The notes below the pieces were generated by a model. That model did not search any database, was not told the DNA's origin, and saw only the letters and a list, made by a program, of their open reading frames with translations. Positions 20,228 through 22,041 of a DNA stretch of 38,852 nucleotides are shown one piece after another. How positions within the stretch are numbered: position 1 is the stretch's first letter; each line of letters starts with the position of its first letter. The translations under genes were made by a program, and so were the position numbers. The stretch comes from Armatimonadota bacterium (GTDB taxonomy: Bacteria > Armatimonadota > Hebobacteria > GCA-020354555 > CP070648). The stretch spans positions 3,924,988 through 3,963,839 of the forward strand of contig CP070648.1 of NCBI GenBank assembly GCA_020354555.1, read 5' to 3'.

Positions 20228-20255
20228 CGAAGGGCACGGCACGCCGTGCCCTTCG
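20228..20255 (+). terminator. 12-bp stem-loop after the aldolase gene
   Basis: Arms CGAAGGGCACGG (20228-20239) and CCGTGCCCTTCG (20244-20255) pair perfectly around a CACG loop, 53 bases after the aldolase stop. No U-tract follows, so it is a terminator-like hairpin or mRNA-end stabiliser rather than a classical intrinsic terminator. The rest of 20175-20420 shows nothing recognisable. Confidence 0.5.
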
Positions 20256-21386: not shown

Positions 21387-21598
21387 CGGAGTGAGCTCCG
21401 TCGCACGGAAAGCAGTCGGAAACAGTCTACTCGTCAGAGGCCCGTCAACACGGCCGCTTGGTGAAACAAGATAGCTGATAGATGACGATGAGGTGAGGAC
21501 TGTGCGGCGCCCGGGATGCTTCCCTTGGCCCCAAGCATGGAAGCTGCTAGTGGCCTCTTTACCCTCCCCTGTGACCTCACTCCGCCGCTTTGCGGCGC

Positions 21599-21622
21599 TG
21601 GCGGAGAGAGTGGGATTCGAAT
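21599..21622 (-). repeat. 24-bp copy of the tRNA-Ser 3' end (att-like), distal copy
   Basis: These 24 bases equal 21947-21970, which is the tRNA-Ser gene from the T-loop (TTCGAA) through the acceptor strand, the encoded CCA and one more base. Upstream of the T-loop the match stops and no T-stem can form, so this is a tRNA fragment, not a second tRNA. Such a duplication of a tRNA 3' end is what integration at a tRNA gene leaves behind. Confidence 0.85.
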
Positions 21623-21660
21623 GCGCCTCCGGCGCACAAGCCCACGTAGTGGGCGCAGCT

Positions 21661-21927
21661 TTACCCGCCGGAGGCGGGCCACGAGGCCCTTTCCAGCTCG
21701 TCGAGCCATTCGCGCCCCTCGCCGCTCTTCAAGTACTTCTCGCGCGCCCGCGCGGCCGCGTGGTCACTGAACCGCTCTGTGTGCAGCACGCAGCAATCGC
21801 GCAGGAGCTGACCCGCTTTCGAGTACGCAGCGCGGTGTTCCCGCAGCCGCCGCTCCAGGTTGTTGGTGATGCCGACGTAGCGCTTGCCGTTGCGCCGCGA
21901 CCTGAGCACATAGAGCGTAACTGCCAT
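21661..21927 (-). CDS. Small GIY-YIG nuclease family protein
   Basis: 88 residues, start ATG 21927. The GIY-YIG fold is clear: LYV (5-7, the GIY strand), RYVGI (16-20, the YIG strand), LERRLREH (24-31, with Arg27 and His31 of the active site) and REKYLKSGEGREWL (62-75, with the presumed metal-binding Glu63). It is a single-domain member, like the YhbQ/UvrC-N-type stand-alone nucleases. It begins 20 bases after the CCA of tRNA-Ser on the same strand with no visible Shine-Dalgarno, so it is probably expressed from the tRNA transcript. A copy of the tRNA 3' end lies 38 bases past its stop, so the gene is bracketed by direct repeats and may be, or may have been, a mobile or homing unit. Its DNA target is unknown. 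Confidence 0.9.
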   Translation of the reverse strand: MAVTLYVLRSRRNGKRYVGITNNLERRLREHRAAYSKAGQLLRDCCVLHTERFSDHAAARAREKYLKSGEGREWLDELERASWPASGG

Positions 21928-21947
21928 GGGCTAACACTGAATCGGAC

Positions 21948-22041
21948 TGGCGGAGAGAGTGGGATTCGAACCCACGAGGGAGCTTGTGGCCCCCTACGCG
22001 ATTTCCAGTCGCGCCCCTTCGGCCAACTCGGGCATCTCTCC
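21948..22041 (-). tRNA. tRNA-Ser(GGA)
   Basis: Minus-strand gene with acceptor GGAGAGA (22041-22035) pairing TCTCTCC (21958-21952), discriminator G and an encoded CCA (21950-21948). The anticodon loop is ACTGGAAAT with anticodon GGA, reading UCC and UCU serine codons. A long variable arm (GGGGGCCACAAGCTCCC) is typical of tRNA-Ser, and the T-arm is GTGGGTTCGAATCCCAC. It is directly followed by the GIY-YIG gene. Confidence 0.96.

Follow-up and report, generated by a model that had tools for sequence, protein, structure and literature searches.

How does a lone nuclease gene come to lie between an intact tRNA gene and a second copy of that tRNA's end? The question is raised by a tRNA-Ser(GGA) locus in the window, which here means the whole stretch of 38,852 nucleotides that was analysed.

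A nuclease gene between two copies of a tRNA end

Read on the minus strand from 22041 to 21598, the locus consists of tRNA-Ser(GGA), 20 nucleotides, an 88-residue GIY-YIG ORF and, once more, the 24 bases that run from the T-loop to one base past the CCA (Table 1). The repeat is exact, begins with the first base of the T-loop, and has its two copies 349 bp apart from start to start. It is the only pair within three mismatches in the window, and 100 shuffles produced none. The GIY-YIG ORF is the only gene between the repeats, so that a direct repeat of the tRNA end stands at both borders, and no site-specific recombinase was found between them. An earlier note on this DNA had described the exact repeat, the lone nuclease gene 20 bases past the tRNA and the lack of a recombinase inside the unit. 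All three observations hold, with the repeat positions shifted by one base from those first given. Rfam scans returned no group I intron, and the tRNA-Ser of the window is uninterrupted.

The PF01541 match above cut-off, the conserved Tyr, Gly, Arg and Glu and the fold match place the protein in the GIY-YIG superfamily; Y17, G19, R27 and E63 of the catalytic motif are invariant in its clade. An AlphaFold2 model (pLDDT 82.5) contains one GIY-YIG domain and no second domain. The nearest matches to this fold, each at a weak E-value, are UPF0213, Slx1 and the catalytic domain of I-TevI. For a catalytic domain on its own, loop sequence, DNA structure or RNA are candidate cues for finding a site. 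A tblastn search of phage and plasmid records gave no match to the protein. Seven matches came from viral contigs, which may be host DNA; two of them (L181 and L183) have the arrangement of tRNA duplication and GIY-YIG gene, and a third (L182) adjoins a tRNA. A search of a defence library gave a single weak match, in one member.

Table 1. Positions of the element's parts and of related loci. Coordinates refer to the window unless a locus or contig is named.
Feature	Position	Strand	Evidence or remark
Intact tRNA-Ser(GGA), CCA encoded; host gene of the element	21948..22041	-	ARAGORN; Rfam tRNA, 54 bits
Proximal 24-bp repeat, T-loop TTCGAATCC to CCA plus one base	21947..21970	-	Within the intact tRNA
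GIY-YIG nuclease ORF, 88 aa, catalytic domain only	21661..21927	-	PF01541, E=5e-12; begins 20 nt past the tRNA
CCTCGTGG, copy of tRNA-Ser positions 63-70 (T-stem 5' strand)	21679..21686	-	Start of the split tRNA copy
Hairpin H1, CCCGCCTCCGGCGGGTAAA	21660..21678	-	
Spacer GCTGCGCCCACTAC and second copy of the T-stem 5' strand, GTGGG	21641..21659	-	
Hairpin H2, CTTGTGCGCCGGAGGCGCA	21622..21640	-	Between T-stem and T-loop (tRNA 71/72)
Whole conserved hairpin module	21608..21684	-	Covariance model R1, 85.5 bits; window among the model's training sequences
Distal 24-bp repeat, T-loop to one base past CCA	21598..21621	-	
Perfect 6-bp hairpin immediately past the distal repeat	21583..21597	-	
tRNA-Ala(GGC) in a tRNA array, ORF-less module directly after it, then its own 3' end TTCGAATCCCATCTCCTCCACCAC	G000:C1:4028925-4029014 (L216:1501-1590)		Outside the window
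Second-subfamily copies	L003, G000:C1:3835468; L002, 1489805; L006, 2403001		
Mirror-type loci	Pro L048; Leu L058; Asn L059, L164, L170; His L060, L154; Ser L163, L171; Met L158		

A hairpin module within the tRNA copy

When the tRNA is aligned to the region after the ORF, the distal repeat proves to be the end of a longer copy of the tRNA-Ser 3' part. The T-stem segment that opens this copy is parted from the 24-mer by a module of two hairpins, and the tRNA 3' part in the element is thus interrupted in its T-arm. H1 and H2 are both perfect hairpins; H2 sits exactly between T-stem and T-loop, and the stop codon TAA of the ORF falls within the TAAA of H1. Within 96 bp there are, in all, four hairpins with a perfect 6-bp stem and a 3-base loop. 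The hairpins may prevent cleavage of the split copy or keep it from functioning as a tRNA. Elsewhere in the window, a hairpin with a perfect 13-bp stem, CGAAGGGCACGGCACGCCGTGCCCTTCG, lies at 20228-20255, downstream of a DHDPS-family gene.

The module is conserved as a structure. Pairing in the T-stem and in the H1, middle and H2 helices reaches 96.7% over 17 aligned sequences, compared with 38-48% when slid, and seven pairs have changes on both sides; this pairing fits RNA and single-stranded DNA alike. RNAalifold gives essentially the same fold. The module is not in Rfam, and Rfam scans found nothing beyond tRNA, tmRNA and one int-alpA match (L040) barely above the cut-off, other matches in the window being below the gathering score.

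The covariance model finds a second strong site in the chromosome of the window, at 48 bits, next to a tRNA-Ala(GGC). The tRNA-Ser and tRNA-Ala modules align over about 59 nucleotides with few differences, and their tRNA ends differ. A genome of the same family has a syntenic tRNA-Pro/tRNA-Ala pair without module and without 3'-end copy. A different hairpin, CCCTTCGCCC...GCTACGGG, occurs at the same tRNA site in another genome (L221, tRNA-Ala(GGC) of G001) and resembles the leader of the other subfamily. That subfamily is represented in the window's genome by three more small GIY-YIG genes (L002, L003 and L006), which have a common leader hairpin, ACCAGCCTTCGCTGAAGC, and 87-94% DNA identity. 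The gene of L003 begins directly after the tmRNA, and L002 carries a degenerate tmRNA 3' end that is supported by a shuffle test; these loci are a second subfamily of tRNA- and tmRNA-linked GIY-YIG units. A degenerate tmRNA 3' end at L006 was considered and found no support in the shuffle test. The tmRNA of this genome (L003:1798-2148) encodes a seemingly unusual tag peptide, AETYVPAYATA.

Could the hairpins themselves be the mobile units, REP-like palindromes moved in trans by the GIY-YIG protein or another enzyme, with tRNA genes as one preferred target? Hairpins of 19 nucleotides resembling H1 and H2 are dispersed in several other host genomes, often ahead of TTCGA and away from tRNAs, so the hairpins may be an independent repeat. 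There are also ORF-less copies, at the tRNA-Ala described above and in L050, and Slx1, among the nearest folds, is a nuclease of branched DNA. However, the genome of the window has the exact H2 sequence once and the module above 40 bits at two tRNAs only, and the association of ORF and tRNA persists in subfamilies with different hairpins or none of the H1/H2 type. We consider this account unlikely. The dispersal of the hairpins, and their weak preference for tRNA loops (P about 0.02-0.04), count against the tRNA-targeting element proposed below. The dispersed copies include hairpins in intergenic DNA of genome G065 and others (L245-L253, L219), and hairpins within a GGTCAGA tandem repeat (L255).

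A second alternative takes the module as a guide. The hairpin-split tRNA copy would be a guide RNA overlapping the end of the ORF, as for IscB and TnpB, and its tRNA part would direct the enzyme to the tRNA gene. A conserved, covarying structure does overlap the stop codon and continue straight into the target sequence, the protein has no separate DNA-binding domain, and the tRNA part matches the local tRNA. Hairpins are, however, also found away from the gene and from tRNAs, and we know of no RNA-guided GIY-YIG protein. An RNA guide of this kind seems improbable. Put more broadly, the element's own tRNA-derived sequence with its hairpins might, as RNA or as folded DNA, lead a single-domain GIY-YIG nuclease to tRNA genes, a speculative proposal that we hold doubtful. 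If it were true, any tRNA in any bacterium would be targetable and would still function after insertion, which would amount to a new class of mobile element.

Occupied and empty tRNA genes across bacteria

Small GIY-YIG genes beside tRNA genes are not peculiar to this locus. A same-strand tRNA or tmRNA gene adjoins 19 of the 50 small GIY-YIG ORFs in the window's genome and 60 related genomes; roughly 0.2 of 50 would be expected by chance at a density of about 50 tRNA genes in 4 Mb. In the comparison set, the linkage occurs for 1 of 25 UvrC genes, which share the GIY-YIG domain, and for none of 16 genes in the UPF0213-like clade. The clade of the window protein (SH-aLRT 89) and the separate, well-supported UPF0213-like clade, outside which the protein falls, were obtained from few alignment columns, and the deep order of the tree is uncertain. 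The window's clade holds 26 genes from about ten phyla, 25 of them on a tRNA or tmRNA. Its hosts cover 12 isotypes (Ser, Pro, Met, Lys, Ala, Val, Glu, Gly, Leu, His, Asp and tmRNA), and over the whole tree there are at least 33 isotype changes among linked genes, some isotypes having been labelled by eye where ARAGORN gave no whole tRNA (contig ends, disrupted copies). Homologs in named genomes, most of which are located on a tRNA or tmRNA, come from Deltaproteobacteria/Desulfobacterales, Verrucomicrobia, Lentisphaerae, Kiritimatiellaeota, Hydrogenedentota, Zixibacteria and Neomarinimicrobiota; further hosts belong to Bacteroidetes, Cloacimonadota, Planctomycetes (Sedimentisphaerales), Ignavibacteria, Omnitrophota and others.

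As a rule, an occupied site has one intact tRNA and a partial copy of the same tRNA. In most close homologs with the repeat, the T-loop TTCRANTCC opens the distal copy, which also contains the acceptor strand and CCA of its own tRNA, and within the window's clade every duplication agrees with the tRNA that hosts it. Genome G555 has three tandem units of 374-375 bp each after tRNA-Asp, in which the terminator-like hairpin is duplicated as well. More distant GIY-YIG subfamilies have the mirror arrangement, in which a hairpin-split 5' part of the tRNA is followed by the ORF and then by the intact tRNA. At another locus (L050:60-360), tandem copies of a tmRNA 3' end, of about 113 bp and with hairpins, lie upstream of a GIY-YIG gene.

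Related genomes also provide tRNA genes without the element. In 14 of them (L105-L111, L113-L119), tRNA-Ser(GGA) has no element downstream. Two relatives of G555 have the upstream flank and the tRNA-Asp in common with it; in both, a single 3' end and a terminator-like hairpin are present and the ORF is lacking, and their downstream flank cannot be aligned. These empty sites are defined by the tRNA and one flank. The tRNA-Ser(GGA) of genome G007 (L112) is followed by a bare tandem duplication of its 3' end without an ORF, possibly a scar.

The repeats might instead be attL and attR of a decayed tyrosine-recombinase island, with the GIY-YIG gene as leftover cargo. Integrases commonly leave copies of tRNA 3' ends, and this is the usual account of tRNA fragments beside intact tRNAs (PMC9897764). 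We judge it very unlikely here, because there is no tyrosine recombinase near the window (the closest in its genome is about 1.6 Mb away) and the same gene, unaccompanied and similarly spaced, recurs on a dozen isotypes across many phyla. A larger version was not seen among these loci, the mirror type involves the 5' end, and independent decay down to one identical gene is improbable. Also very unlikely is a resident tRNA partner, either a processing enzyme or a tRNA-cleaving toxin kept adjacent for co-expression, which would suit an ORF on the same strand as the tRNA and often 20-30 nucleotides past the CCA, but conflicts with the many isotype changes on the protein tree and repeated loss, with the rare and sporadic presence of the gene (9 genomes of 297 in one phylum and 9 of 288 in another), with relatives whose tRNA lacks it and with the terminator-like hairpin that often separates tRNA and ORF.

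A putative tRNA-targeting element and its relation to known systems

A lone gene accompanied by a copy of the tRNA end, on many tRNA genes and in many phyla, looks like an undescribed and very small form of mobile DNA; a literature search that had most subscription papers and all preprints outside its scope found no description of such an element. From these sequence comparisons, we conclude that the locus is probably a minimal mobile element of tRNA and tmRNA genes, about 350 bp long, nuclease-only, homing-like and selfish, which would duplicate part of its target and leave one intact tRNA. Mobility and tRNA targeting are well supported by the sequences compared, and homing via cleavage and recombinational copying would be the most likely mechanism. 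The earlier note had already proposed a nuclease-only unit that targets tRNA genes. Its proposal agrees with the relatives on other tRNAs, with the GIY-YIG genes flanked by tRNA fragments across many isotypes and phyla, and with the tRNA-Ser(GGA) and tRNA-Asp genes that lack the element, which show that the arrangement is not fixed among relatives; homing by cleavage is still something that we infer. The note had missed the hairpin module and the mirror arrangement, and also that tmRNA genes serve as hosts and that the genome has a second copy.

In such a homing cycle, the nuclease would cut an unoccupied tRNA gene near a conserved loop, which in the window's clade would be the T-loop TTCRANTCC and in other clades would lie nearer the D- or anticodon-loop side. 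Host recombination would then repair the break with an element copy as template, the hairpin-split tRNA copy serving as homology arm. The partners of the crossover would be the intact tRNA and a circle, or another copy, bearing the split tRNA and the ORF. A single crossover downstream of the hairpins would yield intact tRNA, ORF and split copy, as in the window, and one upstream of the hairpins would yield split copy, ORF and intact tRNA, the mirror type. The two neighbouring copies would be kept alike by gene conversion between them and by selection for a tRNA that still works. After a change of isotype, the match between split copy and tRNA needs either duplication of the target or later gene conversion.

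Like a homing gene, the nuclease is absent from some tRNA-Asp orthologues and tRNA-Ser genes, as judged from homology of one flank. When a classical homing endonuclease gene inserts, it destroys its target site. Here, by contrast, the presumed target persists in the intact tRNA beside the element, and it is the split copy that is interrupted at the T-arm.

If this reading is correct, few known mobile elements that are self-contained would be smaller, and an essential gene would be occupied without harm by means that involve neither a recombinase nor an intron. In bacteria that have received little study, the element would account for many solitary GIY-YIG genes and fragments of tRNAs for which annotation error or lost islands are the current explanation. 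As a nuclease of 88 residues with access to universal tRNA sequences, the protein would also make a compact subject for enzymology, and the hairpin module would allow guidance by RNA or DNA structure to be tested directly.

Several known systems share parts of this organisation. The closest solved structures, by sequence and fold, are the small UPF0213/YhbQ-like GIY-YIG proteins (1zg2, 1ywl), whose genes, unlike those of the window's clade, are not tRNA-linked. OMEGA systems comprise IscB or TnpB with a guide RNA at the edge of the element. As in these systems, a structured sequence overlaps the 3' end of the nuclease ORF and runs on into the target, but the nuclease fold is another one, part of the target is duplicated, and a guide function is here a candidate only. 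Tsy transposons likewise have a small GIY-YIG nuclease in a site-specific mobile element; there the nuclease is non-essential, and the transposons rely on the tyrosine recombinases YRec and TnsF and target comM (PMC10293859).

The two closest parallels lie in homing genes and integrative elements. SegB of phage T4 is a free-standing GIY-YIG homing gene inserted between tRNA-Arg and tRNA-Ile; its target is the intergenic region of the phage tRNAs, and no duplicated tRNA part is reported (PMC2988022). The window element is like SegB in being a lone, recombinase-free GIY-YIG gene adjoining a tRNA, with predicted spread via a break in unoccupied DNA, and unlike it in consisting of the catalytic domain alone, in residing in bacterial chromosomes on many isotypes and in having a hairpin-split tRNA copy. 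With integrase-type elements of tRNA and tmRNA genes (phages, ICEs and islands) it shares an intact tRNA on one side, a partial copy on the other and a preserved target function (PMC9897764), whereas it is recombinase-free, about 350 bp long, has one nuclease gene and carries a partial copy split by conserved hairpins. The element thus resembles both SegB-like homing genes and integrase att duplications and fits the full definition of neither.
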